A DNA stretch of 64,000 nucleotides from Achromobacter pestifer (GTDB taxonomy: Bacteria; Pseudomonadota; Gammaproteobacteria; Burkholderiales; Burkholderiaceae_B), in contig NZ_CP053985.1 of assembly GCF_013267355.1 (NCBI RefSeq), positions 7,006,001 to 7,070,000 on the forward strand, read 5' to 3'. Shown here piece by piece: positions 43,383-61,670 of the stretch. The notes beneath the pieces are model-generated. The model was not told where the DNA came from, did not search any database, and saw only the letters and a list, made by a program, of their open reading frames with translations. Made by a program: the position numbers and the translations under genes. Position 1 is the first letter of the stretch; the number at the start of each line of letters is the position of its first letter.

Positions 43383-43385
43383 GCC

Positions 43386-45002: not shown

Positions 45003-45004
45003 AC

Positions 45005-45748: not shown

Positions 45749-45873
45749 ACCGCTTTCACCACAAGGAGCCTCCCCACCGCGACCCGCCAGCGTAAGGCCA
45801 GAACAGAGCGCCGCAGCAGATCCCCCAAGCGCCAGCAGTATCCGAACAAGATCCGGCATAAAGGAGACCAACC

Positions 45874-47112
45874 ATGAAATGCCGTAGAACCCCCCGGATT
45901 TCCCTGAAGTTGCGCAGCACGCTAGCCCTGCTATCCGCCTTCGCCGCCGCGCCCTGCGCCATGGCGCAGGCGATCTCCGACGACGTGGTCCGCCTGGGCC
46001 TGATCCTGGACATGAGCGGCGTGTACGCCGACGTCACGGGCAAAGGCAGCGCGACCGCGGCCGAAATGGCCATCGCCGACTTCGGCGGCACGGTGCTCGG
46101 CAAGAAGATCGACCTGATGGTGGTGGACCACCAGAACAAGGCCGACATCGCCGCAGCCAAGGCGCGCGAGTGGTACGACACCCAGAAAGTCGACGCCATC
46201 ATGGACGTGGCGGGCTCCGCCCCCGCGCTGGCCGTGCTGGAAGTGGCCCGCGAGAAAAAGAGGATCGTGGTGTTCAGCGGGCCCGGCACCGAGCGCATCA
46301 CCAACGACCTGTGCTCGCCCTATTCCGTGCACTACACCTACGACACCTGGTCGCTGGCCAACACCACGGCGCGCGCCACGGTCGAGCAAGGCGGCAAGAG
46401 CTGGTACTTCCTGACGGCCGATTACGCTTTCGGCCACACCTTGCAGGCGTCCGCCACCGAGGTCGTCAAGGCCAACGGCGGCACCGTGCTGGGTGCGTCG
46501 CGCCATCCGCTGGGCTCCAGCGACTTCGCCTCGTACCTGCTGCAGGCCCAGGCCAGCCGCGCGCAGATCGTGGGCCTGGCCAACGCCGGCGGCGACACCG
46601 TCAACGCCATCAAGGCCGCCAGTGAATTCGGGCTGACCAAGGGCGGCCAGAAGATGGCCGGACTGCTGCTGTACATCAACGACATCCACGCCATCGGCCT
46701 GGACGCCGCCGCCGGACTGACGCTGACCGAAGCCTTCTACTGGGACATGAACGACCAGACCCGGGCCTGGTCCCAGCGTTACTACGACAAGCTCAAGAAG
46801 ATGCCCAACATGAGCCAGGCCGGCACGTATTCGTCAGTGATGCACTACCTGAAGTCGGTGCAGGCAGCCGGCACCGACGAGCCGACGGCAGTGATGAAGC
46901 AGATGAAGTCCATGCCCATCAACGACTTCTTCGCCACCAACGGCCGCATCCGCGAGGACGGCCGCATGGTGCACGACATGTACCTGTTCGAAGTGAAGAA
47001 GCCATCCGAGTCCAAGCGGCCCTGGGACTACTACAAGCTTGTGGCCACCCTGCCCGGCGACCAGGCCTTCATGCCGCTGTCGCGTTCGTCCTGCCCGCTG
47101 GTGAAGAAGTAG
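45874..47112 (+). CDS. Liv-type ABC transporter substrate-binding protein (orphan)
   Basis: This 412-residue periplasmic binding protein has a long signal peptide (1-32, ending CAMAQ) and the amino-acid-binding fold (VRLGLILDMSGVYADVTGKG, KIDLMVVDHQNKADIAAAKAREWY). No permease or ATPase gene is adjacent. It lies beside the hydantoin/imidazole cluster and could deliver its substrate to a distant Liv-type permease. The GGAG ribosome site is 10 bp before the ATG. Confidence 0.88.
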   Translation: MKCRRTPRISLKLRSTLALLSAFAAAPCAMAQAISDDVVRLGLILDMSGVYADVTGKGSATAAEMAIADFGGTVLGKKIDLMVVDHQNKADIAAAKAREWYDTQKVDAIMDVAGSAPALAVLEVAREKKRIVVFSGPGTERITNDLCSPYSVHYTYDTWSLANTTARATVEQGGKSWYFLTADYAFGHTLQASATEVVKANGGTVLGASRHPLGSSDFASYLLQAQASRAQIVGLANAGGDTVNAIKAASEFGLTKGGQKMAGLLLYINDIHAIGLDAAAGLTLTEAFYWDMNDQTRAWSQRYYDKLKKMPNMSQAGTYSSVMHYLKSVQAAGTDEPTAVMKQMKSMPINDFFATNGRIREDGRMVHDMYLFEVKKPSESKRPWDYYKLVATLPGDQAFMPLSRSSCPLVKK

Positions 47113-47120
47113 CGGCGGCG

Positions 47121-47141
47121 CGGGCGCCCGGTGGGCGCCCG
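47121..47141. terminator. Hairpin between convergent genes
   Basis: Perfect arms CGGGCGCC and GGCGCCCG around a 5-nt loop lie between the stops of the binding protein and carbamoylase genes, well placed as a two-way terminator. Confidence 0.5.
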
Positions 47142-47146
47142 TCTCG

Positions 47147-48409
47147 CTATGCCCGCAGCTTGCGGTCCAGTTCCAGCACGGATTGGTAAAGCACGCGGGT
47201 GCCGTCGAGCAGCTGCGCGGGCTCGATCCATTCTTCCGGACAGTGGCTGCGGCCGTTCAGGCACGGGATGAAGATCATGCCGATGGGGCCGGTGGGCGCC
47301 ATGTAGACCGCGTCGTGGCCCGCGCCGCTGGGCAGGCGCATGGAGGCGTAGCCCAGCTGATCGGCGGCGGCCTGCACCGCGTCCATCACCAGCGGCGTGC
47401 AGTCGGTGGGCCGGGCGCGGCTCAGCTGCGTGAAGCTGGCCGAGAGGCGCAGCGCCGTCAGGTCCGCGGCCACGCCAGCCATCAGGGTCTCGGGGAAGGC
47501 GTCCAGCACGGCGTCGCTGTCGCTGCGCATTTCCAGCGTCAGTTCGACGCGGCCGGGCACCGCGTTGGCGGCGTTCGGCGTCATGGACAGGCGGCCCACG
47601 GTGGCGACCACGTAATGCGGATTGCCGCTGGCCGCGCTGGCCTGGCGATGGGCCGCGTCGATGATGCGGGCTGCCCCCACCAGGGCGTCGCGGCGGATGT
47701 CCATGGGCGTGGTGCCGGCATGGTCGGGCTGGCCTTGCACCGTGATCAGCACGCGGCGGATGCCGACGATGTTGGTGACCACGCCGATGGGCAGGCCGCG
47801 GCTTTCCAGCACCGGGCCCTGTTCGATATGCAGCTCCACGAACGCCGCGGTGCCATCGGCAGCGCGCAACGGCGCGCCCAGCGCCGAGGGGTCGCCGCCG
47901 ATGCGGGTGATGCCGGCCGCCAGCGTCTCGCCCTCGGGGTTGCGGGCGGCCAGCATGTCGGGCGTCAACTGGCCGCAGAGAGCGCGGCTGCCGACGCAGG
48001 AGATGCCGTAGTCGCTGGGTTCCTCGGACAGGAAGTCGATGACCTCGAACGGGTGTTCCAGCTGCACGCCGTGCTCGCGCAGGGTGTGGGCGACTTCGAT
48101 GCCGGCCAGCACGCCGATGATGCCGTCGAAGCGGCCCCCGGCCATGACGGTGTCGCAGTGCGAGCCGGTGGCGATGGGCTTGCGCGCCGGATCGCGCCCG
48201 GCCAGCGTGCCTATCAGGTTGCCGCCGGCATCCAGGCGGGTCGTCAGGCCCGCGGCCTCGAATTCGCCGCGCAGCCAGGCGCGGGCCTCATCGAACAGCG
48301 GCGAGAATGCGCGGCGCGTCCAGGGGACGTCGGGCAGGGTGTATCGGGAAAGGGTTTCGACGCGGGCCCAGAGGCGCTCGGCGTTCAGGGGAGGAAATTG
48401 CACAGGCAT
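47147..48409 (-). CDS. Zn-dependent N-carbamoyl-L-amino acid hydrolase/allantoate amidohydrolase-type (M20 family)
   Basis: This 420-residue enzyme has the binuclear metal motifs of the hydantoinase/carbamoylase branch of M20: ATGSHCDTVMAGGRFDGIIG, DFLSEEPSDYG, ELHIEQGPVLE and GRSHCPEEW. It would remove the carbamoyl group from an N-carbamoyl amino acid, releasing CO2 and ammonia. It starts 11 bp after the hydantoinase-like gene, the order of a hydantoin pathway. For an imidazole-derived hydantoin-propionate the product would be L-glutamate. Confidence 0.88.
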   Translation of the reverse strand: MPVQFPPLNAERLWARVETLSRYTLPDVPWTRRAFSPLFDEARAWLRGEFEAAGLTTRLDAGGNLIGTLAGRDPARKPIATGSHCDTVMAGGRFDGIIGVLAGIEVAHTLREHGVQLEHPFEVIDFLSEEPSDYGISCVGSRALCGQLTPDMLAARNPEGETLAAGITRIGGDPSALGAPLRAADGTAAFVELHIEQGPVLESRGLPIGVVTNIVGIRRVLITVQGQPDHAGTTPMDIRRDALVGAARIIDAAHRQASAASGNPHYVVATVGRLSMTPNAANAVPGRVELTLEMRSDSDAVLDAFPETLMAGVAADLTALRLSASFTQLSRARPTDCTPLVMDAVQAAADQLGYASMRLPSGAGHDAVYMAPTGPIGMIFIPCLNGRSHCPEEWIEPAQLLDGTRVLYQSVLELDRKLRA

Positions 48410-48420
48410 TGCCGTGTCCC

Positions 48421-49776
48421 TCAAGCCTGGCGCGGACGCAGGAAGCGGCCGTCGCCCTTCTGGTTGACGATGCGCTTTCCGTCGTAGACCTGCTGGCCGC
48501 GGCACCAGGTGCCCGCGACGCGCACGGTGAACTCGCGGCCTTCGAACGAACTCCAGTGCACCGCCGACAGGCTGGCCGACGGATCAAAGGCATGGCGCTC
48601 CGGTTTGAGGATGACGATGTCGGCGTCCTTGCCCACCTCCAACGAACCCTTGCGGTCATCCAGCAGGAAGTGCTGCGCGGGGTTGCGGCTCAGTTGGCGC
48701 ACCACCATGGACGGCGCGATGCCATGCTCTTCGCAGCCCGTCCAGAAGGCGGGCAACAGCGTTTCCAGGCCGGGGCCGCCGGACGAGTTCTTGAATACGT
48801 TCGGATTCTGCTTGCGCTCCAGGCCCCAGCTGACATGGTCCGACGACACGAAGGTGCATTCGTCCTTGGCGATATGAGTCCAGAGCAGATCGACCTCGGC
48901 CTTGGGGCGGATCGGCGGATAGTGCTTGGTCTTCGCGCCGAAGCGGCGGGTGTGCTCTTCATGGTTCAGCATCAGGTACTGCACGCAGGTTTCAATGCTG
49001 GCGCGGTGGCCGTTGCGGCGGTACATATTGCAGATCTCGAAGCCGCGGGCAGTCGACACGTGCACCGCGTGGGCGCGCGCGCCGGTTTCGGCGCCTATCT
49101 CATAGATCAGCGCGGTCGCCAGGTTCTCGATCAGCGGCGTATGGGCCCGCATGAAAGCGTCCCAGCCCGTGTCGTCCGCCTCGATCAGCCGCGCGATGTT
49201 CTTGCGGGTCAGTTCCTGCATCTGGTTATGCACGCCGCACACCAATCCGGACGGAGCGATCAGGCGGAAGGCTTCGTACAGGTCGTCTTCCTCGATGCGG
49301 GGAAAACGGCCCGGCGTGGCTTCGAAGGTAGAGAACTTGAAGGCGCAGACGCCGCCTTCGATGAGGCCTGCCGCGGCCCCCACGCCGTGCTGGGTGTTCA
49401 AGGTGCCAAACAGCGCCACATCCACGTGGCAATCGCGCTCGACCTCGGCGATCTTGGCGTCCAGCTGCGGGCGCGAAGCCACGGGTTCCGGATCGTCGTA
49501 GGGCATGTCGACCATGACCGTGACCCCGCCGGCGGCCGCCGCGCGCGACGCCCAACCGAGTCCTTCCTGATTCAGCTGGCTGCCCGAGTGCACCTGGCCG
49601 TCGACCACGCCCGGCACGACCCACTGGCCGCGCGCATCCACGCTGTCGCGGCCCGCGGGGGCCGGGCCGGCGCCGCGCGCCGCGATCTTGCCGTCCCTCA
49701 CCGCCAGCCAGCCGTCCATCGCCACGCCATCCGGGTCGACGATATTGCCGCGCACCACCAAATCGAAATCGCTCAT
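48421..49776 (-). CDS. Hydantoinase/dihydropyrimidinase-like cyclic amidohydrolase
   Basis: This 451-residue amidohydrolase resembles allantoinase/dihydropyrimidinase. The carbamylated Lys (CAFKFST, Lys147), His183 (GVHNQ), His239 (HAVHVST) and a metal Asp (VSSDHVSWG) are present. However the first metal motif, normally Asp-x-His-x-His, reads D59-G-Q61-V-H63, so one metal ligand is Gln. Activity may need one metal only or a different substrate. It would open a hydantoin ring, followed by the M20 carbamoylase 11 bp downstream. The LysR gene is divergent with 99 bp between starts. Confidence 0.85.
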   Translation of the reverse strand: MSDFDLVVRGNIVDPDGVAMDGWLAVRDGKIAARGAGPAPAGRDSVDARGQWVVPGVVDGQVHSGSQLNQEGLGWASRAAAAGGVTVMVDMPYDDPEPVASRPQLDAKIAEVERDCHVDVALFGTLNTQHGVGAAAGLIEGGVCAFKFSTFEATPGRFPRIEEDDLYEAFRLIAPSGLVCGVHNQMQELTRKNIARLIEADDTGWDAFMRAHTPLIENLATALIYEIGAETGARAHAVHVSTARGFEICNMYRRNGHRASIETCVQYLMLNHEEHTRRFGAKTKHYPPIRPKAEVDLLWTHIAKDECTFVSSDHVSWGLERKQNPNVFKNSSGGPGLETLLPAFWTGCEEHGIAPSMVVRQLSRNPAQHFLLDDRKGSLEVGKDADIVILKPERHAFDPSASLSAVHWSSFEGREFTVRVAGTWCRGQQVYDGKRIVNQKGDGRFLRPRQA

Positions 49777-49854
49777 GACCGCCACCATCCTGTGTTGAGT
49801 GCAGGCAGTGTAGGAGCGGCCATCCAAAACGTCTTATGCTTATATGTGCGTGAG

Positions 49855-49870
49855 AATTAACATCAGGTTA
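49855..49870. promoter_or_regulatory. LysR recognition site 1 (near regulator start)
   Basis: AATTAACATCAGGTTA lies 5 bp before the LysR start codon in the hydantoinase/LysR gap. It matches 13 of 16 bases with the site at 50855 upstream of the DUF917 gene, and its core TAACATCAGGTTA is an imperfect dyad. Confidence 0.55.
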
Positions 49871-49875
49871 AGCAT

Positions 49876-50766
49876 ATGAAATTGAATCTGCGGCAGATCG
49901 AAGTTTTCCGGGCGATCATGCTCAGCGGCTCCATCAGCGGCGCATCCAAGCTTCTGTTCGTGTCCCAGCCCGCGGTCAGCCGGCTCATCGCCTATACGGA
50001 GCAGCGCCTGGGGCTGATGCTGTTCCAGCGCATCAAGGGCCGTCTGTATCCCACCCCTGAAGCCCACCGGCTGTTCGTGGAGGTCACGGCGCTGTACCAG
50101 AACGTGCAACGCGTGAACGAAGTGGCCGAGAACCTGGCGGAAAACCGCGAAGGCCAACTGCGGCTGTCGTGCAGCCCCAGCCTCGGCCAATCTCTGCTGC
50201 CCCGCGCGATCGCGCAGTTCCGGCGGCAATTCCCGGAAGTGCGCATCGTCCTGCAGACCTTGATCCCCACGGTGATGCAGCAGTCGCTGTTGACGCAGCA
50301 GGTGGAGCTGGGCGTGGCCTACATGCCGGTGGACCACCCCAGCCTGGCGTGGCAGCCGCTGTACGAGAACCAGATCGTGGCGGTACTGCCCAAAGGGCAC
50401 CCGCTGGCGGCACGCGGCCGCGTGACGGTGCACGATCTGGCCGAAGAGCCACTGATCGGTTACAGCGCGGACATTCCCTTCGGAATATTGATCAACAAGC
50501 TGTTCGGCGGTGAACATGCGCAACCCGAACCACGCATCGAGGTCCAGCAGGCCCACGTCGCCTGCGCCCTGGTCCAAGCCGGCGCCGGCGTAGCGCTGGT
50601 GGACGAGATCACGGTGGCCGGGCCGATCTGGTCGGAAGTGGTGACCCTGCCGATCATCGGCACCGTGAACGCGCCGGTCAATGTGTTCCATCTCGAGCTC
50701 CAGCCCCTGTCTCGGCTGGCGCTAGCCTTCATCGACGTGCTCCACAAGCTCGACCAGCGCGGCTAA
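49876..50766 (+). CDS. LysR family transcriptional regulator of the imidazole/hydantoin-type catabolic cluster
   Basis: This 296-residue protein has a LysR helix-turn-helix (residues 5-65, GSISGASKLLFVSQPAVSRLIAYTEQRLG) and an effector domain resembling those sensing amino acid-type ligands. It sits between the hydantoinase operon (divergent) and the DUF917-urocanase operon (downstream), each preceded by a similar AATTAACAT dyad. It therefore probably controls both. Confidence 0.9.
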   Translation: MKLNLRQIEVFRAIMLSGSISGASKLLFVSQPAVSRLIAYTEQRLGLMLFQRIKGRLYPTPEAHRLFVEVTALYQNVQRVNEVAENLAENREGQLRLSCSPSLGQSLLPRAIAQFRRQFPEVRIVLQTLIPTVMQQSLLTQQVELGVAYMPVDHPSLAWQPLYENQIVAVLPKGHPLAARGRVTVHDLAEEPLIGYSADIPFGILINKLFGGEHAQPEPRIEVQQAHVACALVQAGAGVALVDEITVAGPIWSEVVTLPIIGTVNAPVNVFHLELQPLSRLALAFIDVLHKLDQRG

Positions 50767-50788
50767 ATCAGGCTTCGGCCTCGATCAC

Positions 50789-50813
50789 GCGCCTAGGGAT
50801 ATCCCTCAGGCGC
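50789..50813. terminator. Hairpin after the LysR gene
   Basis: The inner palindrome AGGGATATCCCT is flanked by GCGCCT and AGGCGC arms with one bulged base, 22 bp after the regulator stop, followed by ATTCTCC. It probably separates the LysR transcript from the catabolic operon. Confidence 0.5.
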
Positions 50814-50854
50814 ATTCTCCGCTGCGCCACCGCTCCGCTATGAGCGCGCGGGAC

Positions 50855-50870
50855 AATTAACATGATGTTA
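50855..50870. promoter_or_regulatory. LysR recognition site 2 (operon promoter)
   Basis: AATTAACATGATGTTA contains the perfect 13-bp palindrome TAACATGATGTTA and resembles site 1 at 49855. It lies about 115 bp upstream of the DUF917 start, ahead of an AT-rich promoter-like stretch. Confidence 0.6.
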
Positions 50871-50933
50871 TGTGTAAAGCATAAAAGGTAATACGACATT
50901 ATCAAACCTGCTTCCTATGATCCCCCCGTCCAT

Positions 50934-50950
50934 CCCGCAACCGTTGCGGG
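50934..50950 (+). other. Hairpin in the operon leader
   Basis: CCCGCAAC-C-GTTGCGGG is a perfect dyad in the untranslated leader 35 bp before the DUF917 start. No T-run follows; it may stabilise mRNA or tune translation. Confidence 0.4.
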
Positions 50951-50985
50951 AATCATTGAAATCAGCAATCGGGAGGAAAGGCGTC

Positions 50986-52077
50986 ATGGGAAGAATTTTG
51001 ACGATGCAAGATGTCGAAGCCGCGGTTCGAGGCGGATCGGTCTTCGCCTGCGGCGGAGGCGGCTGGGCCGAGCATGGGCGTGAGCTGGGCTCGCTTGCCG
51101 TCACCATCGGCCGCCCTGAATTGGTGACCATGGACGAGGTGCCGGACGACGCGTGGATTGCCACCGCGGCCGCGATTGGCGCGCCGGGCGGACTCACCGA
51201 CTGGCAAATGCTGGGCATCGATTACGTCAAGGCCGCTCAGCGGCTGCAGGACGCGCTCGGAGAGCGCGTCTACGGACTGATCATCGGCCAGAACGGCATG
51301 TCCAGCACCTTGAACGGCTGGCTGCCCTCCGCCGTGCTGGGCACCAAGGTCGTCGACGCCGTGGGCGACATCCGCGCCCACCCCACCGGCGACATGGGTT
51401 CGCTGGGACTGGCAGGCAGCCCCGAACCGATGATCCAGTGCGCCGTGGGCGGCAATCGCGCCAGCAACTCCTATATGGAGCTGACCGTCCATGGCGCCAC
51501 CGGCAAGGTATCGCCGGTGCTGCGCAAGGCGGCCGACATGGCGGGCGGCTTCATCGCCAGCTGCCGCAATCCGATCCGCGCATCCTACGTGCGCCGCCAT
51601 GCCGCCCTGGGCGGCATCAGCAAGGCGCTGGCGTTGGGCGAGGCCATCATCGCCGCGCAGCCGCGCGGCGGCAGCGCGGTCATCGACGCAATCTGCAAGG
51701 CGACCCAAGGCGAAATCATTGCTTCCGGCAAGGTGGTGCGCAACACCCTGCGCTACACCGAGGAGGCCTTCGACATCGGCACCGTCGAAATCGGCGAAGG
51801 CGCGGGCAAGCGCGTGATCCACGTGATGAACGAGCACATGGCCGTGACCGACAGCCACGGCGCACGGGTCGCCTGCTATCCGGACGTGATCACCACCCTG
51901 GACGCCGAAGGCAATCCGGTCAGCGCGGGCCAGCTGCGTGTAGGCCTGGAGGTCAGCGTCCTGCACGTGCGCAAGCAGCACATCCCCTTGTCTTCCAGCG
52001 TCACCGACCCATCTGTCTACCCCATCGTGGAAAAGGCGCTGGGCATGAACTTCACCGACTACGCATTGGCATCCTGA
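50986..52077 (+). CDS. DUF917 family protein (S-methyl-thiohydantoin desulfurase-like/hydantoin-related)
   Basis: This 363-residue protein is recognised as DUF917 by its N-terminus MGRILTMQDVEAAVRGGSVFACGGGGW and the EVPDDAWIATAAAIGAPGG region. To my recollection Pfam now links this family (PF06032) with S-methyl thiohydantoin desulfurase of S-methyl-ergothioneine breakdown. ATG 50986 was chosen over 50917 because AGGA precedes it and it gives the family N-terminus. It starts the operon and is 10 bp from the urocanase-like gene, which supports a reaction on the urocanase product. Confidence 0.82.
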   Translation: MGRILTMQDVEAAVRGGSVFACGGGGWAEHGRELGSLAVTIGRPELVTMDEVPDDAWIATAAAIGAPGGLTDWQMLGIDYVKAAQRLQDALGERVYGLIIGQNGMSSTLNGWLPSAVLGTKVVDAVGDIRAHPTGDMGSLGLAGSPEPMIQCAVGGNRASNSYMELTVHGATGKVSPVLRKAADMAGGFIASCRNPIRASYVRRHAALGGISKALALGEAIIAAQPRGGSAVIDAICKATQGEIIASGKVVRNTLRYTEEAFDIGTVEIGEGAGKRVIHVMNEHMAVTDSHGARVACYPDVITTLDAEGNPVSAGQLRVGLEVSVLHVRKQHIPLSSSVTDPSVYPIVEKALGMNFTDYALAS

Positions 52078-52087
52078 GGTAAACGGC

Positions 52088-53764
52088 GTGAAACGAGAAT
52101 TCAATATCCCCGGCGGCAACACCCTGCGTTGCAAAGGCTGGCGCCAGGAAGCGCTGCTGCGCCTGCTGGAAAACGTGCTGGCGGTGGGTGAAGACCCGGC
52201 CAACCTGGTGGTCTACGCCGCGTTGGGCCGCGCCGCGCGCGACTGGCCCGCGCATGACGCCATGGTCCAGGCCTTGATGGAACTGGAGGAAGATCAGACG
52301 CTCATTGTCCAATCGGGCAAGCCCATCGGCGTGCTGCGCACGCATCCGCAAGCGCCGATCGTGATCATGGCCAACTGCAACATGGTCGGCCAGTGGGCTC
52401 GCGCCGAGAATTTCTACCAGATGGAACGCGACAACCTGATCTGCTGGGGCGGGCTGACGGCGGGCGACTGGCAGTACATCGGCTCGCAGGGCGTGATCCA
52501 GGGCACCTACGAGATCTTCTCGCGCATTGCCGAACGCCACTTCGACAACGATCTGCGCGGCCGCTTCATCCTGACGGCGGGCATGGGCGGCATGGGCGGC
52601 GCGCAGCCGCTGGCCGGCCGCATGGCGAACGCCGCCATCCTCACCGTGGAAATCAATCCGGAACGCATCGAGAAACGCATCAAGGCGGGTTTCCTCGAAC
52701 GGCGCGCGGACTCGCTGGACGAGGCCCTGGCGCTGATCCAACAAGCGCAGGCCCGCCGCGAGCCGATCTCGGTGGGTCTGCTGGGCAACGCCGCCGACGT
52801 CTACCCCGAAATCCTGGCCCGCGGCATCGTGCCCGATATCGTCACCGACCAGACCTCGGCGCACGACTTGGTCTACGGCTACATTCCCGCCGGGCATACG
52901 CTGGAACAAGTGGCCGACATGCGCCGCAATGACGTTCCTGGCCTGATGGACGCCAGCCGCGCCTCCATCGTCCGCCATGTCACCGCGATGTTGGGATTCC
53001 AGGACCGGGGCTCGATCGTCTTCGACAACGGCAACCTGATCCGCACCCATGCGAAACAGGGCGGCGTGGAACGCGCCTTCGAGATCCCGGTGTTCACCGA
53101 GGCGTTTCTGCGGCCCCTGTTCGCGCGCGCCATCGGTCCGTTCCGCTGGATCGCGCTATCGAACGACGCCGACGACATCCGCAAGATCGACGATTTCCTG
53201 CTGCAACGCTTTCCCGACAACTTCATCGTCTCCAACTGGATCCGACTTGCGCGCAAGGAAGTGCCGTTCGAAGGCCTGCCCGCCCGCATCGCCTGGCTGG
53301 GACACGGCGAGCGCACCGAGCTGGCGCTGGAAGTGAACCGGATGGTGCGCGAAGGCGTGCTCAGCGCGCCCGTCGCCTTCACGCGGGACCATCTTGACGC
53401 CGGCGCCATGGCTCATCCGAACATCATGACGGAAAACATGCGCGACGGTTCCGACGCCATCGCCGACTGGCCGCTGCTCAACGCCATGATCAACTGCTCG
53501 TCCAGCGCCGACCTGGTGGCGATCCACTCCGGCGGCGGCGGATACAGCGGCTACATGACCAGCGCCGGCGTCACGGTGGTGGCGGACGGCACCGCGGCCG
53601 CCGACCAGCGGCTGCGCCTGTCGATGACCAACGACACGGCCAGCGGCGTGCTGCGGTATGCCGACGCCGGCTACGAGGACGCCCTGGATGAGGTGCGGAA
53701 AAAGAACATCGCCCGCATCGACACCGCCCAGTACGCCCACTGCAGCCCTGGACACGGCGACTAG
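52088..53764 (+). CDS. Urocanate hydratase family protein, diverged (likely modified-urocanate hydratase)
   Basis: This 558-residue protein follows urocanase throughout: NAD-binding LTAGMGGMGGAQPLAGRM (about 162-179), GLLGNAADVYPEIL, GSDAIADWPLLNAMIN and ADAGYEDALD at the end. It differs at key places: the urocanase active-site Cys in ARICWVG is Ala402 (ARIAWLG), and the GFSQHSG segment after the glycine run is GYMTSAG near residue 487. This points to a substrate other than urocanate, for example thiourocanate, S-methyl-thiourocanate or N-methylurocanate. The start is GTG with AGGT upstream. Confidence 0.87.
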   Translation: MKREFNIPGGNTLRCKGWRQEALLRLLENVLAVGEDPANLVVYAALGRAARDWPAHDAMVQALMELEEDQTLIVQSGKPIGVLRTHPQAPIVIMANCNMVGQWARAENFYQMERDNLICWGGLTAGDWQYIGSQGVIQGTYEIFSRIAERHFDNDLRGRFILTAGMGGMGGAQPLAGRMANAAILTVEINPERIEKRIKAGFLERRADSLDEALALIQQAQARREPISVGLLGNAADVYPEILARGIVPDIVTDQTSAHDLVYGYIPAGHTLEQVADMRRNDVPGLMDASRASIVRHVTAMLGFQDRGSIVFDNGNLIRTHAKQGGVERAFEIPVFTEAFLRPLFARAIGPFRWIALSNDADDIRKIDDFLLQRFPDNFIVSNWIRLARKEVPFEGLPARIAWLGHGERTELALEVNRMVREGVLSAPVAFTRDHLDAGAMAHPNIMTENMRDGSDAIADWPLLNAMINCSSSADLVAIHSGGGGYSGYMTSAGVTVVADGTAAADQRLRLSMTNDTASGVLRYADAGYEDALDEVRKKNIARIDTAQYAHCSPGHGD

Positions 53765-53769
53765 CAACC

Positions 53770-54957
53770 ATGGACAGAAAGATGCTTGAAGGCGTGCGCG
53801 TGCTCGATTTCACGCGGGTGCTGGCGGGACCGTACTGCACGGCGATGCTGGCCGACCTGGGCGCCGAGGTCATCAAGGTCGAACCGCCGCAGGGCGACGA
53901 CCAACGCCACATGGGACGCATGGTGCAAGGCGAAAGCACCAACTTCATCCTCAACAATCGGGGTAAGAAGAGCATCCGGCTGGACCTCAAGCGGGACGAA
54001 GGCCGGCGCATCGCGAGGGAGCTGGCCGCCAGGAGCGATGTGCTCATCGAGAACTTCAAGCCGGGCGTGGCCGGCAAGCTGGGGATCGGCTATGCCGAAT
54101 TGTCCGAGCTGTTCCCGCGGCTGGTGTATTGCAGCATCTCGGGCTTCGGACAGAACGGTCCGAACGCCGCCCGCCCCTCCTACGACGTGGTGGCCCAGGC
54201 CATGAGCGGCTTGATGAGCCTGACCGGCGAGGCCGACGGCGCGCCCACCTTGATCGGCGAATCCGTCGGCGACATCTGCGCCGGCATGTTCGCCGCCTGG
54301 GGTGTGATGGCGGCGCTGTATGACCGCGAACGCGGCGGACGCGGCAGGCACGTGGACGTGGCGATGTTCGATTCGCTACTGGCGATGCAGCCCACGGCCT
54401 TGGCGCAGTATCTGTTCGGCGGCGCGGCGCCGGCGCGCGTCGGCAACCGCCACCCGCTGAGTTCGCCGTTCGGCGCCTACGCGGCCAATGACGGCCATCT
54501 GGTGATCGCGGCGGCAAATGACAAGCTGTTTCAGGCGGTCGCGGATACCATCGGCCGCCCCGAGCTGCCGGCCGACCCCCGCTTTCGCACCGATGGCGAG
54601 CGCAGCCGAAACGACGCCGAACTGCGTCCGCTGATCGAAGCCTGGAGCAGGACGCTGAGCGTGCAGGAAGCCGTGGCGGCCATGTCTCGCGCCGGCGTCC
54701 CGGCGGCGCCCATCCAGGACACCGCGCAGGCAGTCGACAGCGAACAGGCGCGGGTACGCCAGTTGACCACCCGTGCCCCCCACCCTGTCCTGGGAGAGAC
54801 GGCGCTGGTCGAGCAGCCCGTGCATTTCTCCGGCATGCGGCGAGGCGAACTGGCCACCGCTCCGGCGCTGGGCCAGCACAGCGCTGAGGTATTGGCCCAG
54901 GTATTGGGAATGGACGCCAGCGCGATTGAAGGCCTGCGCGCGGCAGGCGTGATCTAA
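53770..54957 (+). CDS. Family III CoA-transferase (CaiB/BaiF)
   Basis: This 395-residue protein shows LEGVRVLDFTRVLAGPYCTAMLADLGAEVIKVEPP, NRGKKSIRLDLK and the catalytic Asp in IGESVGDICAGM (about residue 166). It moves CoA between an acyl-CoA and a free acid. It starts 5 bp after the urocanase-like gene and precedes two acyl-CoA dehydrogenases, so it probably activates a saturated propionate-type side chain for desaturation. Confidence 0.9.
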   Translation: MDRKMLEGVRVLDFTRVLAGPYCTAMLADLGAEVIKVEPPQGDDQRHMGRMVQGESTNFILNNRGKKSIRLDLKRDEGRRIARELAARSDVLIENFKPGVAGKLGIGYAELSELFPRLVYCSISGFGQNGPNAARPSYDVVAQAMSGLMSLTGEADGAPTLIGESVGDICAGMFAAWGVMAALYDRERGGRGRHVDVAMFDSLLAMQPTALAQYLFGGAAPARVGNRHPLSSPFGAYAANDGHLVIAAANDKLFQAVADTIGRPELPADPRFRTDGERSRNDAELRPLIEAWSRTLSVQEAVAAMSRAGVPAAPIQDTAQAVDSEQARVRQLTTRAPHPVLGETALVEQPVHFSGMRRGELATAPALGQHSAEVLAQVLGMDASAIEGLRAAGVI

Positions 54958-54968
54958 GGAGCATGGGA

Positions 54969-56171
54969 ATGGAAATGCGGTTCAGCCCGGAAGAAGAACG
55001 CTTCCGCAGCGAAGTGCGCGATTTCATCGCCGCCAACCTGCCGGCGGACATCCGGCGCAAAGTCGAACTGGGCCTGCGCCTGGAGCGCAGCGATTACACG
55101 CGTTGGCAGGACATCCTGGCGGCGCGCGGCTGGTACGCGGTGAACTGGCCGGAACAATACGGCGGCCCCGGCTGGAGTCCGGTGCAGAAGTACCTATTCC
55201 AACAGGAGTACGGCGCGCAGCCCTGTCCGCCGCTGGTGCAGTTTGGCGTCAACATGGTCGGCCCGGTGATCTACACCTACGGCAACGAAGCCCAGAAGAC
55301 CCGCTTCCTGCCGCGCATCCTGGCCAACCAGGACTGGTGGTGCCAGGGATACTCGGAACCCGGATCCGGCTCCGACCTGGCGTCGCTGCGCACGACCGCC
55401 GTGCGCGACGGAGATGATTACATCGTCAACGGCTCCAAGATCTGGACCACCTGGGCGCAATGGGCGGATTGGATGTTCGCGCTGGTGCGCACCAGCAAAG
55501 AGGAGCGGCCGCAGCAAGGCATCTCCTTCCTGTTGCTGGACCTGCGTTCGCCCGGCATCAGCCAGCGGCCGATACGCATGCTGGACGGTGACGCCGAAGT
55601 CAACGAGGTGTTCTTCGACAACGTACGCGTGCCGGCCGCCCAACTGGTGGGAGGCGAAGGCACGGGCTGGTCCTACGGCAAGTTCCTGCTGGAACACGAG
55701 CGCTTCGTGATCTCCGGGGTCGCCCGATCCAAGCGTCTGCTGGCACGGGTCAAGGGTGTGGCGCAACGCCTGCCGGACGGCATGGGCGGGAACCGCCTGG
55801 ACGATCCGGCGCTGCGCTTGCGCGTGGCGGATCTGGAAATGCAGCTGTGCGCGCTCGAATACACCGAATTGCGTTTCCTGAGCGCCATGAATGCCGGGCA
55901 GAGCCCCGGCAGCGCCGCCTCGATCCTGAAAATACGCGGCACCGAAATCGAACAGGCCATCAGCGAACTGGCGATGGATTGCCTGGGGGAAGACGCGTTG
56001 GCGCTGGACGAGGCGCTGCTGGACAGTCTGAGCGCCGACTCCCAAGCGCTGGGTCCGGATTTCGCGGCCGCAGCGGGCCCGCTGTACTTCAACTTGCGCA
56101 AGGTGACGATCTGGGGCGGCTCGAACGAGATCCAGCGCAACATCCTCGCCAAGCACGTGCTGGGATTGTAG
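54969..56171 (+). CDS. Acyl-CoA dehydrogenase, large/catalytic subunit-type
   Basis: This 400-residue flavoprotein has QGYSEPGSGSDLASLRTTA (FAD/substrate loop), GSKIWTTWAQWADWMFALVRT and the C-terminal IWGGSNEIQRNILAKHVLGL. It resembles PimC/FadE-type subunits of heteromeric enzymes, with a candidate base in FLLEHERF. ATG 54969 was chosen because GGAG is 7 nt upstream; the ATG at 54963 is too close. It should introduce a C=C bond next to the thioester. Confidence 0.9.
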   Translation: MEMRFSPEEERFRSEVRDFIAANLPADIRRKVELGLRLERSDYTRWQDILAARGWYAVNWPEQYGGPGWSPVQKYLFQQEYGAQPCPPLVQFGVNMVGPVIYTYGNEAQKTRFLPRILANQDWWCQGYSEPGSGSDLASLRTTAVRDGDDYIVNGSKIWTTWAQWADWMFALVRTSKEERPQQGISFLLLDLRSPGISQRPIRMLDGDAEVNEVFFDNVRVPAAQLVGGEGTGWSYGKFLLEHERFVISGVARSKRLLARVKGVAQRLPDGMGGNRLDDPALRLRVADLEMQLCALEYTELRFLSAMNAGQSPGSAASILKIRGTEIEQAISELAMDCLGEDALALDEALLDSLSADSQALGPDFAAAAGPLYFNLRKVTIWGGSNEIQRNILAKHVLGL

Positions 56172-56180
56172 GAGACCACG

Positions 56181-57317
56181 ATGGATTTTTCTTTCAACGA
56201 TCTGCAGCGCATGCTGCATGAAAGCGCCGAAACCTACGCCCGCGACCACGGCGATTTCGAACGTCGGCGCCGCCTCATGGCCAGCGCCGCCGGCTACGCG
56301 CAGGAAGACTGGAAGCTGATGGCCGACCTGGGCTGGCTGGCGTTGCTGCTGCCGGAGGAATTAGGCGGCGTGGGCGGCGGACCGGTCGAAACCATGATCA
56401 TCATGGAAGCGCTGGGCAAGGCGCTGGCGGGCGAGCCCTACCTGTCGACCGCGGTACTTGGCGCCGGATGCCTGCTGCGGCACGGTACGCCCGCGCAGCG
56501 CGACGCCTGCCTGGGCCCGCTGGCGCTCGGCGACTACCGGATGGCGCTCGCGCATCGCGAACAGGACTCCCACGAGAACCGTCATGCCGTGGCCCTGCGG
56601 GCGCGGCGGGATGGCGCAGGCTATGTATTGGACGGCGCCAAGCAGACTGTGTTCGACGCGCCCGGCGCGCAGGCTTTCATGGTCTCGGCGCGTACGGACG
56701 GCGCGTCGTGCGCGCGCGACGGCATCACCATGTTCCTGGTCCCGGCCACTGCCGCCGGTCTCACGCAGCGGCCATTCCGCAGGTTGGACGGCGGCCGCGC
56801 CTCGCATCTCGCATTCGAGGGCGTGCGCGTGGACGACGGCGCAGTGCTGGGCCGCCGGGACGATGGCGCAGCGGTGCTGGACGATCTGTACGCGCACGCG
56901 ATCGGCGCGCTTTGCGGCGAAGCCCTGGGCGCGATGCAGGCGATGCACGACGCCGCGCTCGATTATCTGAAAGTCCGGCGACAGTTCGGCCGTCCCATCG
57001 GAACGTTCCAGGCGTTGCAACATCGGCAGGTGGACATGTACACGGCGCTCGAAGAAGCGCGGTCGTTGACCCTGGCCGCCAACATGGCGCTGGCCGAATC
57101 CATGCCGGAAGCGGAGCGGCTGCTTTCCATGGCCAAGGCCCAGGTAGGCAAGTCCGCCCGCATCGTCGGGCAAGGCGCCATCCAGCTGCATGGCGGCATC
57201 GGCATGACCGAAGAGCTGCAGGTCGGCGCGCACTTCAAACGGACAACCGTGATCGAAGCCATGTTCGGCTCGCGCCAGCACCATCTGGCGCGCCTGATTC
57301 AGGACCGGCAGGCATAG
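56181..57317 (+). CDS. Acyl-CoA dehydrogenase, small/second subunit-type
   Basis: This 378-residue protein is a second, more diverged acyl-CoA dehydrogenase. The N-terminal half is present but the FAD motif is weak (LAHREQDSHEN), while RRQFGRPIGTFQALQHRQVDM and QLHGGIGMTEE are kept. Such pairs (PimC/PimD, FadE28/29-like) form alpha2beta2 enzymes. It starts 9 bp after the large subunit with AGGAG upstream. Confidence 0.88.
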   Translation: MDFSFNDLQRMLHESAETYARDHGDFERRRRLMASAAGYAQEDWKLMADLGWLALLLPEELGGVGGGPVETMIIMEALGKALAGEPYLSTAVLGAGCLLRHGTPAQRDACLGPLALGDYRMALAHREQDSHENRHAVALRARRDGAGYVLDGAKQTVFDAPGAQAFMVSARTDGASCARDGITMFLVPATAAGLTQRPFRRLDGGRASHLAFEGVRVDDGAVLGRRDDGAAVLDDLYAHAIGALCGEALGAMQAMHDAALDYLKVRRQFGRPIGTFQALQHRQVDMYTALEEARSLTLAANMALAESMPEAERLLSMAKAQVGKSARIVGQGAIQLHGGIGMTEELQVGAHFKRTTVIEAMFGSRQHHLARLIQDRQA

Positions 57318-57410
57318 CAGCAAGACACAACCGCAGGGCCGAGGGGCAGCGGTTCATTTTTACGTTTTTTCAGAGCGTGCTCCAAGCGCGCATGATTCCA
57401 GGGGAAAGAA

Positions 57411-58751
57411 ATGAAAGACATCACGATCAATCCCGGAGCCGGGGTTCCGCCCGGCCGTCCGGCGCATCAGGCCACGGCGCACGAGCGCAGCGGCCGCAAG
57501 GCAGTGATTGCCGCGTCGGCCGGCAATGCCCTCGAATGGTATGACTTCACCGTCTATGCCCTGTTCGCGGTCTATATCGGGCAGAACTTCTTCCATAACG
57601 CCGATCCCACCGTGCAATTGATGGCTTCGTTCCTGGCCTTCGGCCTGGGCTTCGTGGTGCGGCCCCTGGGCGCGCTGGTGCTGGGTTCCTATGGCGACCG
57701 CGCCGGACGCAAGGCAGCGTTGACCTTGACCATCATGCTGATGGCCGTGGGCACGCTGCTGATCGCCGCGGCGCCGCCCTATGCCGCGATCGGCGTGGGC
57801 GCCCCCCTATTGATCGTGTGCGGCCGCGTGCTGCAAGGTTTCTCGGCCGGCGGCGAGGTCGGTGGCGCCACCGCCTTCCTGGTCGAGCATGCGCCGGAAG
57901 GCAAGCGCGGTCAGTATGCCTCGTGGCTGCAGGCCAGCATGGGCATTTCCAACCTGCTGGGCGCACTGGTCGCTACCCTGGTCACCACGCTGCTGACCGA
58001 ACAGCAGGTCGGAGAATGGGGTTGGCGCGTGCCGTTCATCATCGGCCTTGCGATCGCGCCTGTCGGCCTGTGGATGCGCCGTGCGCTGGACGAAACGCCG
58101 CATTTCCGCGAAGAACAGGCGCGCCAGGCGCGTCAGGGCGACCATGTCAAGGCGCCGCTGCTGTCGGTCCTGCGGGACTATCCCAAGGAGCTGCTGACCG
58201 GCCTGTGCATGTCGGTGCTCTGGGCCGTCGGCCCCTACGCGCTGATCATTTTCATGCCCATCTATGTGCAGAAATCGCTGGGGTTCTCCAGTTCACAGGC
58301 CTTCACGGCAGCGCTCGTGGGCAATCTGTTCCTGATCGGGGGTTGCGTGTTCTCCGGCACGCTGTCGGACCGTTACGGTCGCCGCACCGTGCTGCGCGCA
58401 GCGGCGCTGATCCTGCTGCTCGCGGTCTACCCGCTGATGATGTGGCTGAAGGCATCGCACACCCTGGGCACGCTCATCGTGGTGCAGTCGCTGTTCTGCC
58501 TGATGGTGGCCATGTACGTGGGCGTGGCCCCGGCGGCGCTGTCCGAAGTGTTTCCCACCGCCGTGCGCTCTTCGGGCATGTCCCTGTCGTACAACACGGC
58601 AGTCACGGTCCTGGGCGGATTCGCCCCCGTCATTCTTACCTGGATCACCTACACCACGGGCGTGGCGTTCGCGCCCGCACTGTACGTCATGGGAGCCAGC
58701 GTGGTCGCGCTGATTGCATTGACCGTTCTGCCGCAGGGCCGCCATGTTTAA
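57411..58751 (+). CDS. MFS transporter, metabolite:H+ symporter type (ProP/ShiA-like)
   Basis: This 446-residue membrane protein has twelve predicted helices and the MHS-family marks NALEWYDFTVYALFAVYIG, GDRAGRKAALTL and RVLQGFSAGGEVGGATAFLVEHAPEGKRG. It imports organic acids or betaines; ergothioneine-like betaines or imidazole acids would suit the cluster. It overlaps the next gene by 8 bp. Confidence 0.9.
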   Translation: MKDITINPGAGVPPGRPAHQATAHERSGRKAVIAASAGNALEWYDFTVYALFAVYIGQNFFHNADPTVQLMASFLAFGLGFVVRPLGALVLGSYGDRAGRKAALTLTIMLMAVGTLLIAAAPPYAAIGVGAPLLIVCGRVLQGFSAGGEVGGATAFLVEHAPEGKRGQYASWLQASMGISNLLGALVATLVTTLLTEQQVGEWGWRVPFIIGLAIAPVGLWMRRALDETPHFREEQARQARQGDHVKAPLLSVLRDYPKELLTGLCMSVLWAVGPYALIIFMPIYVQKSLGFSSSQAFTAALVGNLFLIGGCVFSGTLSDRYGRRTVLRAAALILLLAVYPLMMWLKASHTLGTLIVVQSLFCLMVAMYVGVAPAALSEVFPTAVRSSGMSLSYNTAVTVLGGFAPVILTWITYTTGVAFAPALYVMGASVVALIALTVLPQGRHV

Positions 58752-59835
58752 GGTATCCAAGACACTGGCCGCGGCCGCGGCGCTCGCGCTGGCCGGCTTT
58801 TGCTCGACGCCGCTGGCGGCGGAATCGCCGCGGACCACCGAGCTGGTTCTGCTGGGCGTGGCCGGCGGCCCGACCTGGTATGGCGCCGAGTCGCCGCACG
58901 GGATTTCTTCGGCAGTGCTGGTGGACGGACGGGCCTACATCGTCGACCTGGGCTCTGGCGCTTACCGCCAGTTGCGCCGCGCCGGCGTCAAACCCGGCGC
59001 CGAACAAGCCGTGTTCCTGACCCACCTGCACACCGACCACATCATCGATCTGGCGAACCTGCTGATGTACGACCCGAGCGCCCGCCGCCGCGCCAAGGCG
59101 TCCATGCAGATATACGGCCCCGGACGGCGCGGCGTCCTGCCGCCGCTCGCGCCCGGCATGAAGGACGACCCGGTGATCCACGCGGAAAATCCTTCCGCCG
59201 GCACGCGCGATCTGGTCGAGTCGGTCATCGCCGGCATGTCGGCCGATCTGAACATACGGGTGCGCAGCGAAGGCGTGCCGGATATCCGGCAGTTCTTCCA
59301 GGCTCATGACATCGAGGTTCCGGCCGGCGTGGTCAAGGATCCGAACACCGAACCGGCTCCGCCGATGGATCCGTTTCCCGTCTGGCAGGATGAGCGTGTC
59401 AAGGTCAGCGCCATCCTGGTGCCGCACGGTCTGGTGTACCCCAACTTCGCCTACCGCTTCGACACCGCGGCAGGCTCCGTGGTGTTCTCGGGCGATACGG
59501 CGGTCAGCGAAAACCTGATCAAGCTGGCCCACGGCGCCGACATCCTGGTGCACGAGGCGATCGACCCGGCCTGGGTCGACCACATCGTCGGCGCCAAGCC
59601 CTGGGACGCCCGCCAACAAGCGTTGGCCAAGCAACTGCTGGAGGCCCACACCACGCCGCAGCAAGTGGGCGAAGTCGCCACCCGCGCCGGCGTCAAGACG
59701 CTTGTGCTGTCACATCTGGTGCCGGGTGACGCGCCTGCGGAGCATTGGCTGCAGGCGCGCCAGACCTTCCGCGGACCCGTCGTGTTGGGACAGGACCTGC
59801 TGCGCCTGCCCCTGGGCGCGCAGCGCCAACCCTAG
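58744..59835 (+). CDS. Exported metallo-beta-lactamase-fold hydrolase
   Basis: This 363-residue protein has a signal peptide (1-26, ending TPLAA), the metal motif THLHTDHIIDL, and further ligands in SGDTAVSENL, and His in LVLSHLVPG. It resembles ribonuclease Z/arylsulfatase-like MBL proteins but is exported. The reaction is unknown. It overlaps the MFS gene and precedes the exported lyase, so both could act on the substrate before uptake. Confidence 0.87.
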   Translation: MFKVSKTLAAAAALALAGFCSTPLAAESPRTTELVLLGVAGGPTWYGAESPHGISSAVLVDGRAYIVDLGSGAYRQLRRAGVKPGAEQAVFLTHLHTDHIIDLANLLMYDPSARRRAKASMQIYGPGRRGVLPPLAPGMKDDPVIHAENPSAGTRDLVESVIAGMSADLNIRVRSEGVPDIRQFFQAHDIEVPAGVVKDPNTEPAPPMDPFPVWQDERVKVSAILVPHGLVYPNFAYRFDTAAGSVVFSGDTAVSENLIKLAHGADILVHEAIDPAWVDHIVGAKPWDARQQALAKQLLEAHTTPQQVGEVATRAGVKTLVLSHLVPGDAPAEHWLQARQTFRGPVVLGQDLLRLPLGAQRQP

Positions 59836-59933
59836 CCGCCCCGCACGCTTTCCTGCTCCGCCCCGACACCGCGGGCCGCTTGGCGGTCCGCGGCGCCGCC
59901 GCGCCCGTTTCTTTCCCCAAGCCAGGAGTCGCA

Positions 59934-61670
59934 ATGTCCATGCAGCACTCGCCGTCCTCCCCTGCCCGGCCGTATCGGGCAGCCATCCGCCGATCCACTG
60001 GCATCGCCGCGCTGCTGGGCGTATTGCTCGCGCCCATGGCAGCCGTCGCGGCCGCCTGCGCGCCCATCGTTCTGGACGGCCAGTCGCTTACCCTGGCGCA
60101 GATCGAATCCGTGGCCAGGCAAGGCTGCGGCGTGACGCTGGCCGATGAGGCCATGCGGCGCGCGCAACGCTCCTACGACCTGCTGCTGGCCTACGCGCGC
60201 CTGGACCGCCCCGTATACGGACTGAACCGGGGGGTCGGGTTGAACAAGGATCAGACCATTTTCAAAGGAGGAGAAATTTCGCCCGAGGTGCGCAGATTGT
60301 CGGAGCAGTTCAACCGCAACCTGCTGCGTTCGCACAGCGCGGCCTACGGCGCCGAGGCGCCTCGGGAGCTCACTCGGGCGGCCATGCTCATCCGGCTGAA
60401 CACCGCGCTGTTCGGCGGCTCCGGATTGCAGCCTGCCGTGCTGCGCCAGTACGCCGAGTTTCTCAATCGCGGCATCACCCCAGTGATGTTCGGCGAAGGC
60501 TCGGTCGGCGAAGCCGACATCACGATACTTCCGCAGATCGGGTTGGCGATGATGGGCGAAGGCCAGGCCTATTACCGCGGCCAGCGCTTGCCCGCGGCGC
60601 AGGCGTTGCGCCAGGCTGGCCTCGACCCGGTGCAGCCCTTCGGCAAGGACGCCTTGGCCATCGTCAGTTCCAACGCCTACGGCGCCGCCGTCGCGTCGCT
60701 GGCGGCGCTGGATGCCGCCAGGTTGCTTGCCCTGGCCGACACCGTCGCCGCACTGTCGCTCGAAGGGCTGAACGGCAACCTGGCGCCGGTACTGTCCGCA
60801 TCGCAGGCCCAACGCCCCTACGAGGGGCAAGCGAGTACGGCCGGACACATCAGAACCCTATTGCGTGGCAGCTCCCTGTGGCAGCAGGACCCGCAGCGCG
60901 CGCTGCAGGATCCATTGAGCTTTCGCACAGTGAGCCAGGCCCACGGCGCGGCGCGAGACATGTTGGATCTGCTGCAGCGGCAACTGCTGCTGCAGATCAA
61001 CAGTTCCGACGACAACCCCACCGTGGCGCTGGATGCCCAGCCCGGCGAGCATGCCGAAGCTTACGAATTGCAGTTCTACGTCACGGAAGGCCCGGTTCGA
61101 GGCGCCGTGCTGCCCAACGCCGGTTTCGATCCCAGCGCCTGGGCACTGCCTTTGCAGGGCATGGGCGTAGCCTTGTCCCAGGTAGCGCAATTGTCTGCCC
61201 AGCGCACGCTGCGGCTGACCGACACCGCATTCACGGGCCTCCCCCGGTTTCTCAGCCCGGGCAACGGTGCCATCGGCTATGGCCCGATTCAGAAAACGGT
61301 GTCGTCGCTTGCGGCAGAGGTAAGAATGCTGGCGTTGCCGATGGTGACCGACGTGCAGCCCCAGGCTGGAAATATCGAAGACGTGGGAACCAACGCGCCA
61401 GCCACGGGCCGCAGGCTGGCCGCCCAGATCGACCGGTTGACGATGCTGCTGGCGGTGGAACTGATGCACGCCGCCCAGGCCGTGGACCTGCGCGTGGCCC
61501 AGCGTCCCGATTTCATGGTCGGAGCGGGGACCAGCGCCCTCAAGCGCGAGTTCCGCAAGCAGGTCCCCTACATGGCCGAAGATCGGCGCAACGATGAAGA
61601 CATCGTCCGCGCCGTTGATTTCCTCGTGCGGCACCGCCAAGCGTTGGCAGGGGCTGGCGCGGCGCCCTGA
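59934..61670 (+). CDS. Exported histidine ammonia-lyase family protein lacking the MIO triad
   Basis: The 578-residue protein aligns with HAL/PAL enzymes: VYGLNRGVGLNKDQ (catalytic Tyr95), QDPLSFRTVSQAHGAARDMLDLL, QINSSDDNPTVALDA and AVELMHAAQAVDLR. The cofactor-forming loop, GSVGASGD in HAL, reads GSVGEAD (189-195): Ala-Ser-Gly is missing, so no MIO group can form. A signal sequence (RR at 19-20, hydrophobic 23-40) suggests export. HAL homologues without MIO include ergothionase, which eliminates trimethylamine. ATG 59934 was chosen for AGGAG 9 nt upstream. Confidence 0.85.
   Translation: MSMQHSPSSPARPYRAAIRRSTGIAALLGVLLAPMAAVAAACAPIVLDGQSLTLAQIESVARQGCGVTLADEAMRRAQRSYDLLLAYARLDRPVYGLNRGVGLNKDQTIFKGGEISPEVRRLSEQFNRNLLRSHSAAYGAEAPRELTRAAMLIRLNTALFGGSGLQPAVLRQYAEFLNRGITPVMFGEGSVGEADITILPQIGLAMMGEGQAYYRGQRLPAAQALRQAGLDPVQPFGKDALAIVSSNAYGAAVASLAALDAARLLALADTVAALSLEGLNGNLAPVLSASQAQRPYEGQASTAGHIRTLLRGSSLWQQDPQRALQDPLSFRTVSQAHGAARDMLDLLQRQLLLQINSSDDNPTVALDAQPGEHAEAYELQFYVTEGPVRGAVLPNAGFDPSAWALPLQGMGVALSQVAQLSAQRTLRLTDTAFTGLPRFLSPGNGAIGYGPIQKTVSSLAAEVRMLALPMVTDVQPQAGNIEDVGTNAPATGRRLAAQIDRLTMLLAVELMHAAQAVDLRVAQRPDFMVGAGTSALKREFRKQVPYMAEDRRNDEDIVRAVDFLVRHRQALAGAGAAP

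Follow-up and report, generated by a model that had tools for sequence, protein, structure and literature searches.

An ergothioneine-utilization operon of Achromobacter pestifer with a putative CoA-dependent second entrance

We describe an ergothioneine-utilization (ert) operon of Achromobacter pestifer that we judge fairly likely to possess a second, coenzyme A (CoA)-dependent entrance, in which 2-thio-imidazolepropionate would be converted to thiourocanate. The operon lies in a 64,000-nucleotide stretch of the 7.18 Mb genome (contig NZ_CP053985.1, positions 7,006,001 to 7,070,000; this whole stretch is termed the window), where the ert unit spans positions 47147-61670. Judging by its protein families, the core is the already known ergothioneine-utilization pathway, as named in NCBIfam; the new part is a CoA-transferase with paired acyl-CoA dehydrogenases. 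This three-gene CoA module probably lets the cell use a saturated leftover acid. Because a propionate-to-acrylate step would fall just before the hydratase, conversion of thio-imidazolepropionate to thiourocanate was assigned to the module. An earlier note on this DNA had named a HAL-family lyase, a urocanase-type hydratase, a DUF917 protein, a hydantoinase-like enzyme, a carbamoylase, a LysR regulator, a CoA-transferase and a paired dehydrogenase, and all of these were found as open frames within the unit. Two further members were absent from the note's text, namely a major facilitator superfamily (MFS) symporter (57411-58751, plus strand) and a metallo-beta-lactamase (MBL)-fold protein (58744-59835, plus strand).

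Four core proteins scored above the curated cut-offs of the NCBIfam Ert equivalogs (4/4): the thiohydantoin desulfurase of the DUF917/S-Me-THD family (50917-52077, plus strand; NF058529, 597.5 bits, cut-off 440), the urocanase-family thiourocanate hydratase (52088-53764, plus strand; NF058530, 1043.3 bits, cut-off 930), the hydantoin-5-propionate amidohydrolase ErtD (48421-49827, minus strand; NF058538, 694.9 bits, cut-off 600) and the M20-family N-carbamyl-L-glutamate amidohydrolase ErtE (47147-48505, minus strand; NF058540, 672 bits, cut-off 520). The S-methyl-ergothioneine route (NF058531, NF058532), of which we take PDB 8q9u and 8q9v to be structures from their titles, uses the same protein families, but the window proteins fell below both of its cut-offs, with 750 bits against 880 for the hydratase and 279.9 bits against 450 for the DUF917 protein. 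No NCBIfam model names the window lyase (59934-61670, plus strand; PF00221). It scored 302.4 bits with TIGR01225, below the cut-off of 539.15, and has no ASG tripeptide, which sets it apart from histidine ammonia-lyases with the 4-methylideneimidazole-5-one (MIO) cofactor. Its active-site motif is GSVGEADIT, where MIO enzymes carry GSVGASGD, and its best solved match is the ergothionase 6s7j, which has SIGEGDIT at the aligned position. PMC13405746 describes ergothionase as an enzyme without MIO whose products are trimethylamine and thiourocanic acid. Since the four Ert equivalogs pass, the S-methyl models fail and the lyase is MIO-less, the core was assigned to the ergothioneine pathway, and these scores point to ergothioneine as the main substrate instead of S-methyl-ergothioneine, methylhistidine or histidine. 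The suggestion in the earlier note of modified-imidazole catabolism is thus borne out, with ergothioneine as the indicated compound, while S-methyl-ergothioneine and methylhistidine fall away as main substrates. Ergothioneine is a mushroom antioxidant, and its Ert pathway has reportedly been published for Burkholderia sp. HME13. To that pathway, which it resembles in the four enzymes and the MIO-less lyase, the window adds the CoA-transferase, the two-subunit acyl-CoA dehydrogenase and the MBL-fold protein, and its lyase looks exported.

The module sits within the plus-strand operon, at spacings of 5, 5 and 9 bp; from desulfurase to lyase the successive gaps are 10, 5, 5, 9, 93, -8 and 98 bp, where the final value takes 59934 as the start of the lyase. 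Its first gene (53770-54957, plus strand) encodes a family III CoA-transferase (PF02515) that keeps Asp168 and whose nearest solved relatives are 10uh (313 bits) and YfdE (284 bits), with CaiB at only 94 bits. The large dehydrogenase subunit (54963-56171, plus strand) best matches 4x28_A, the FadE26 chain of the alpha2beta2 FadE26-FadE27 enzyme, at 203 bits; its Glu246, invariant in five ert sequences, aligns to FadE26 chain position 247, a glutamate that we take to be the catalytic residue. FadE26-FadE27 acts on a steroid. The small subunit (56181-57317, plus strand; pimD-like) is closer to short-chain dehydrogenases (126 bits) than to 4x28_D (95.5 bits) and has FGSR where the aligned short-chain acyl-CoA dehydrogenase has YEGTS, so that the C-terminal catalytic-type glutamate is missing. 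The pair therefore shows the FadE26/27-type residue pattern, with the glutamate in the large subunit and no C-terminal one in the small. A search with the small subunit gave 30 loci, including those of Achromobacter pulmonis and Bordetella trematum. The remaining 28 (37-49% identity; several on short contigs) had no hydratase, desulfurase or lyase at E 1e-15 and were taken to belong to other pathways. In a 42-row tree of the large subunit, the eight ert rows formed one group (support 100/99). This single ert clade was weakened by wider sampling: with 73 of the 125 available rows, five ert rows fell inside one 38-row branch (100/98) whose remaining members are of unknown context.

Linkage to ert genes was surveyed in 268 genomes of the organism's own family and 299 of a second family (f31), 567 in total, with only the best few transferase candidates per genome scored. 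Transferase orthologues of at least 66% identity were found in four own-family and three f31 genomes, and all seven (7/7) lie inside ert loci. The own-family matches at E 1e-130 or better comprised the four module loci plus four more at 53% identity, and the f31 matches (67-69%) had E 1e-138 or better. Hydratase matches above the model cut-off occur in 16 of the 268 own-family genomes, in the own genome only among 399 sampled from the order and 369 from the class, and in 6/329 of the phylum sample, own included. When cluster order was compared in relatives, as the earlier note had proposed, the module was recovered in 4 of the 16 own-family ert loci (the own locus, G019, G041 and that of B. 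trematum, G092) and not in the others; in G049 neither module nor MFS gene was seen in 20 kb of the ert locus. Strain G001 carries a deletion scar, in which the first transferase codons are joined to the spacer before the MFS gene, and in a tree of 31 hydratases its hydratase nests with those of the module-bearing own locus and L065, which together indicate module loss. Across that tree, module presence requires at least four changes.

The three f31 loci are called Pandoraea-type here because the transferase of one, L127, is identical to P0025 of Pandoraea norimbergensis. Their order is ErtD-LysR-desulfurase-hydratase-porin-UbiD-MFS-transferase-dehydrogenases, and the L127 hydratase, the one tested, passes the thiourocanate model with 1034.6 bits. 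No ergothionase-type lyase was found in the three genomes, whose four PF00221 proteins all have the MIO motif. As a separate observation, UbiD-family decarboxylase genes lie within the ert loci of L127 (6304-7749) and of a Thalassospira (L104, 13641-15059); the two proteins are 44% identical, no ergothionase occurs in either stretch read, and UbiD is possibly another entrance to thiourocanate.

Regulation also ties the module to the ert genes. The palindrome TAAC-N5-GTTA occurs exactly twice in the 64 kb, at two promoters: TAACATCAGGTTA (49858-49870) between ErtD and the LysR gene, and TAACATGATGTTA (50858-50870) ahead of the main operon. The expected mean is 0.02 per window, none of 100 shuffles reached two, and exactly two copies are conserved in 15 of the 16 own-family ert loci (the own locus and 15 fetched ones), the diverged locus L077 having none. 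The LysR-family protein (49876-50766, plus strand; PF00126 and PF03466) is assigned its regulatory role here from its position and the operators, and this single regulator would act through TAAC-N5-GTTA. The matching operators before two transcription units that the earlier note put forward are thus real. In B. trematum, where the MBL and lyase genes are on another contig, an operator copy precedes that pair, and a third copy stands ahead of the MFS-transferase-dehydrogenases unit in the three Pandoraea-type loci. Genome-wide, all three sites of the strict form TTAAC-N5-GTTA in G1463 fall in the ert locus, as do two of the four in each of the own genome and G041, and three of the four in B. 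trematum are ert-related; a reversed control pattern gave 9 to 23 matches per genome. One strict site elsewhere in the own genome (L141; C2:3280110) lies in the vicinity of a different LysR gene and an ABC permease of the branched-chain type, and a site with identical letters occurs in G041.

CaiB/CaiA, the carnitine CoA shuttle, likewise joins a family III transferase to an acyl-CoA dehydrogenase on a betaine-derived acid; the window transferase is nearer to 10uh and YfdE, and the window dehydrogenase is a two-gene set. By analogy with the CaiB/CaiA reduction of crotonobetaine, the module could work backwards and serve as an electron sink in which thiourocanate is reduced to the saturated acid. 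Reduction of urocanate by UrdA is known (PMC13320830), which lends the reverse direction a precedent. We nevertheless regard that direction as highly improbable, given that the large subunit is nearest to FadE26, a catabolic dehydrogenase, that the same operon finishes the full degradation to glutamate, and that Pandoraea-type genomes have the module, yet no lyase was found there to supply thiourocanate.

A parallel arrangement was found in hut operons, which have the same lyase, hydratase and amidohydrolase logic leading to glutamate; the window differs from them in its MIO-less lyase, in having ErtD and ErtE as amidohydrolases and in its dehydrogenase, the hut one being single and different. 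Among 13 plasmid loci with related transferases, hand-picked from 28 records, four (L163, L165, L166 and L167) have a transferase and a dehydrogenase embedded in a hut operon beside hutU. On plasmid pAMI6 of Paracoccus aminophilus, the order is hutI-hutH-hutG-transferase-dehydrogenase-hutU with overlapping gene ends and a divergent hutF; the transferase is 55% identical to that of the window, and there is one dehydrogenase only. P. alcaliphilus has an embedded pair in the pAMI6 order, and in Thioclava and Pseudorhodobacter the pair precedes hutU. The hut dehydrogenase has a YEGSSEIQ tail. In L161 hutC and a transporter adjoin the pair, in five loci (L162, L164, L168, L169 and L170) no hut genes are close to the pair, and the last three of the 13 (L171, L172 and L173) combine a HAL-family lyase with the transferase and other CoA enzymes. 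The four own-family transferases at 53% identity had been set apart as a different system, following NCBIfam; this was revised on account of hut linkage in two of them, G117, where the pair ends a cluster of hut and transporter genes, and G178, whose transferase adjoins hutD-I-F-G-H-U where the contig ends. The surroundings of the pair in G124 and G184 showed no hut genes.

The occurrence of related transferases in hut operons favors a module that acts on plain imidazolepropionate, with urocanate flowing to the separate hut pathway and placement in ert reflecting a shared inducer. Consistent with this, a canonical hut locus with HutH, HutU and HutI lies elsewhere in the own genome, and the 20 kb fetched there contain neither a transferase nor a dehydrogenase of the hut type. 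The seven close orthologues are nonetheless all in ert and none in hut, and the ert and hut dehydrogenases differ, which leaves plain imidazolepropionate a rather unlikely substrate. The suggestion of the earlier note that a saturated imidazolepropionate-type acid provides an extra way in is supported by the ert linkage, the shared operator and lack of a detected ergothionase-type lyase in Pandoraea-type genomes, and the hut-embedded pairs, its substrate being deduced from context.

Several observations count against a CoA-dependent thiourocanate entrance. The module is absent from 11 of the 16 own-family ert loci, which look otherwise complete and pass directly from hydratase to MFS, and from the vicinity of the hydratase in 8 of 9 plasmid ert loci (hydratase identity 60-80%) and in 5/5 further phylum-sample loci. 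The remaining plasmid locus, on P. aminophilus pAMI4, has a transferase, a large and a small dehydrogenase beside the ert core (53%, 56% and 45% identity, the last over 117 residues). In a 46-row transferase tree (five rows from loci, nine near ones and every third of P0026-P0120), its transferase falls apart from the betaproteobacterial ert ones, so that its ert link may have arisen separately. The pAMI4 replicon also carries a HAL-family gene, at a distance of 16-18 kb from its hydratase; as this lies beyond the first 12 kb flank, P. aminophilus was dropped as an example of an ert locus without a lyase. The UbiD gene of Pandoraea-type loci could be the real entrance there. The operator is imperfectly specific, with strict sites outside ert in the own genome (two) and in B. 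trematum (one). Hut embedding is missing in nine of the 13 plasmid loci fetched for their related transferases, and identity between the hut dehydrogenases and the ert subunits is only 23-26%, so that the hut parallel rests on the transferase (55%) and on context. The optional presence of the module, UbiD in the Pandoraea-type and Thalassospira ert loci, and same-subfamily transferases in other clusters would also suit a substrate that is an unrelated carboxylic acid or some other compound derived from ergothioneine (e.g., a UbiD product), with the genes in the locus for another reason. The operator shared in Pandoraea-type genomes and the complete ert linkage of close orthologues speak against this, and we consider it unlikely.

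The cellular location of the lyase affects which substrates have to be imported. The N-termini of 19 lyases were inspected for signal-peptide-like starts by eye and by hydropathy, with no dedicated prediction program. Such starts were seen in 13 of 15 MIO-less lyases from betaproteobacteria and P. denitrificans, L064 and L136 being the less certain ones; outside this group, L105 lacks such a start, and in L100, L113 and L121 the beginning of the protein could not be read. For the window lyase, the start is most likely ATG 59934 rather than TTG 59745 (open reading frame 59745-61670). From these N-termini, the ergothionase-type lyases are probably exported and periplasmic, in which case the cargo of the transporter (PF07690; a metabolite:H+ symporter with 392 bits in TIGR00883, below the cut-off of 443) would be acids instead of ergothioneine. 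The MBL-fold protein also starts signal-peptide-like. Its gene accompanies the lyase, being present in each of the 14 Achromobacter ert loci whether or not these have the CoA module, and in B. trematum it adjoins the lyase gene, apart from the module. It was thus rejected as a thioesterase of the module, since it tracks the lyase and looks exported. Four Achromobacter genomes (L134, L135, L136 and L137) have a second MIO-less lyase, with the motif GSVGQADIT and approximately 60% identity, away from the ert locus, and no MBL gene in the stretch read.

Under the proposed mechanism, a periplasmic MIO-less lyase would split ergothioneine into trimethylamine and thiourocanate, and the MFS symporter would import thiourocanate and the saturated acid. 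The hydratase would form 3-(5-oxo-2-thioxoimidazolidin-4-yl)propionate, from which the DUF917 desulfurase would yield hydantoin-5-propionate, ErtD N-carbamoyl-glutamate and ErtE glutamate; these core intermediates are those of the published pathway and the NCBIfam names. In the side route, the transferase would load CoA onto 3-(2-thioxo-imidazol-4-yl)propionate, the two-subunit dehydrogenase would oxidize the loaded acid to thiourocanyl-CoA, and the transferase would pass the CoA to the next acid, freeing thiourocanate for the hydratase. As CoA would be recycled between acid and product, neither a ligase nor a thioesterase would be needed.

The left boundary of the unit was moved from 45874, as given in the earlier note, to 47147, since the solute-binding protein gene (45874-47112) has no TAAC-N5-GTTA before it and travels with its upstream neighbor block. 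Several Achromobacter strains have that block (42342-47112: cyclase, AMP-ligase, GntR/UTRA regulator and solute-binding protein) on the left side of the ert unit, and it has no shared operator. ErtE and ErtD are on the minus strand, and the genes from LysR through the lyase on the plus strand. The true start of the desulfurase may be approximately 25 codons downstream of 50917, as the NF058529 match begins at residue 26. Terminator-like sites were not enriched (7 found, 8.6 in shuffles). A Microvirga plasmid (L118, 12040-15873) has a DUF917 protein 68% identical to that of the window, with an amidohydrolase and a Zn hydrolase; neither hydratase nor lyase is annotated within 12 kb, and another thiohydantoin source is perhaps involved. 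In Rhizobium sp. CC-CFT758 (L107, 10519-11599), the desulfurase gene matches in three pieces and is probably broken. HAL-family lyase genes adjoin a CoA-transferase and other CoA enzymes (hydroxyacyl-CoA dehydrogenase and enoyl-CoA hydratase, or a short-chain dehydrogenase/reductase and MaoC) in L171 (7407-11869), L172 (7407-11872) and L173 (8968-13337), an arrangement that perhaps serves the breakdown of some other amino acid or betaine through a lyase and beta-oxidation. In Gemmobacter (L168, 3037-11338) and Mesorhizobium (L161, 6983-15119), the transferase-dehydrogenase pair is beside a ring-hydroxylating dioxygenase, an aminotransferase and an FAD oxidase.

The gut-microbial metabolite imidazole propionate has been linked to cardiometabolic disease, and the enzyme that makes it, UrdA, has been identified (PMC13320830). 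Among the matches listed from open full texts, most subscription papers being outside this scope, no gene was named for CoA-route imidazole propionate breakdown, and the ert CoA module was not described in any of those on ergothioneine, thiourocanate or imidazole propionate. We tentatively propose, at a little under even confidence, that the CoA-transferase/dehydrogenase shuttle is an unrecognized aerobic means of returning reduced imidazole acids to their pathways (the thio acid in ert, and in hut the conversion of imidazolepropionate to urocanate), the two versions having been put together independently from different dehydrogenases, and that the ert lyase is extracytoplasmic and the imported substrates are acids, not ergothioneine. 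If the lyase does lie outside the cytoplasm, as the locus suggests by its signal-peptide-like start, ergothioneine would be split there, which changes the cargo that the transporter should carry. The hut-embedded modules may explain imidazole propionate breakdown by soil bacteria and offer concrete candidates for it, and the ert module would be the thio version for ergothioneine leftovers.

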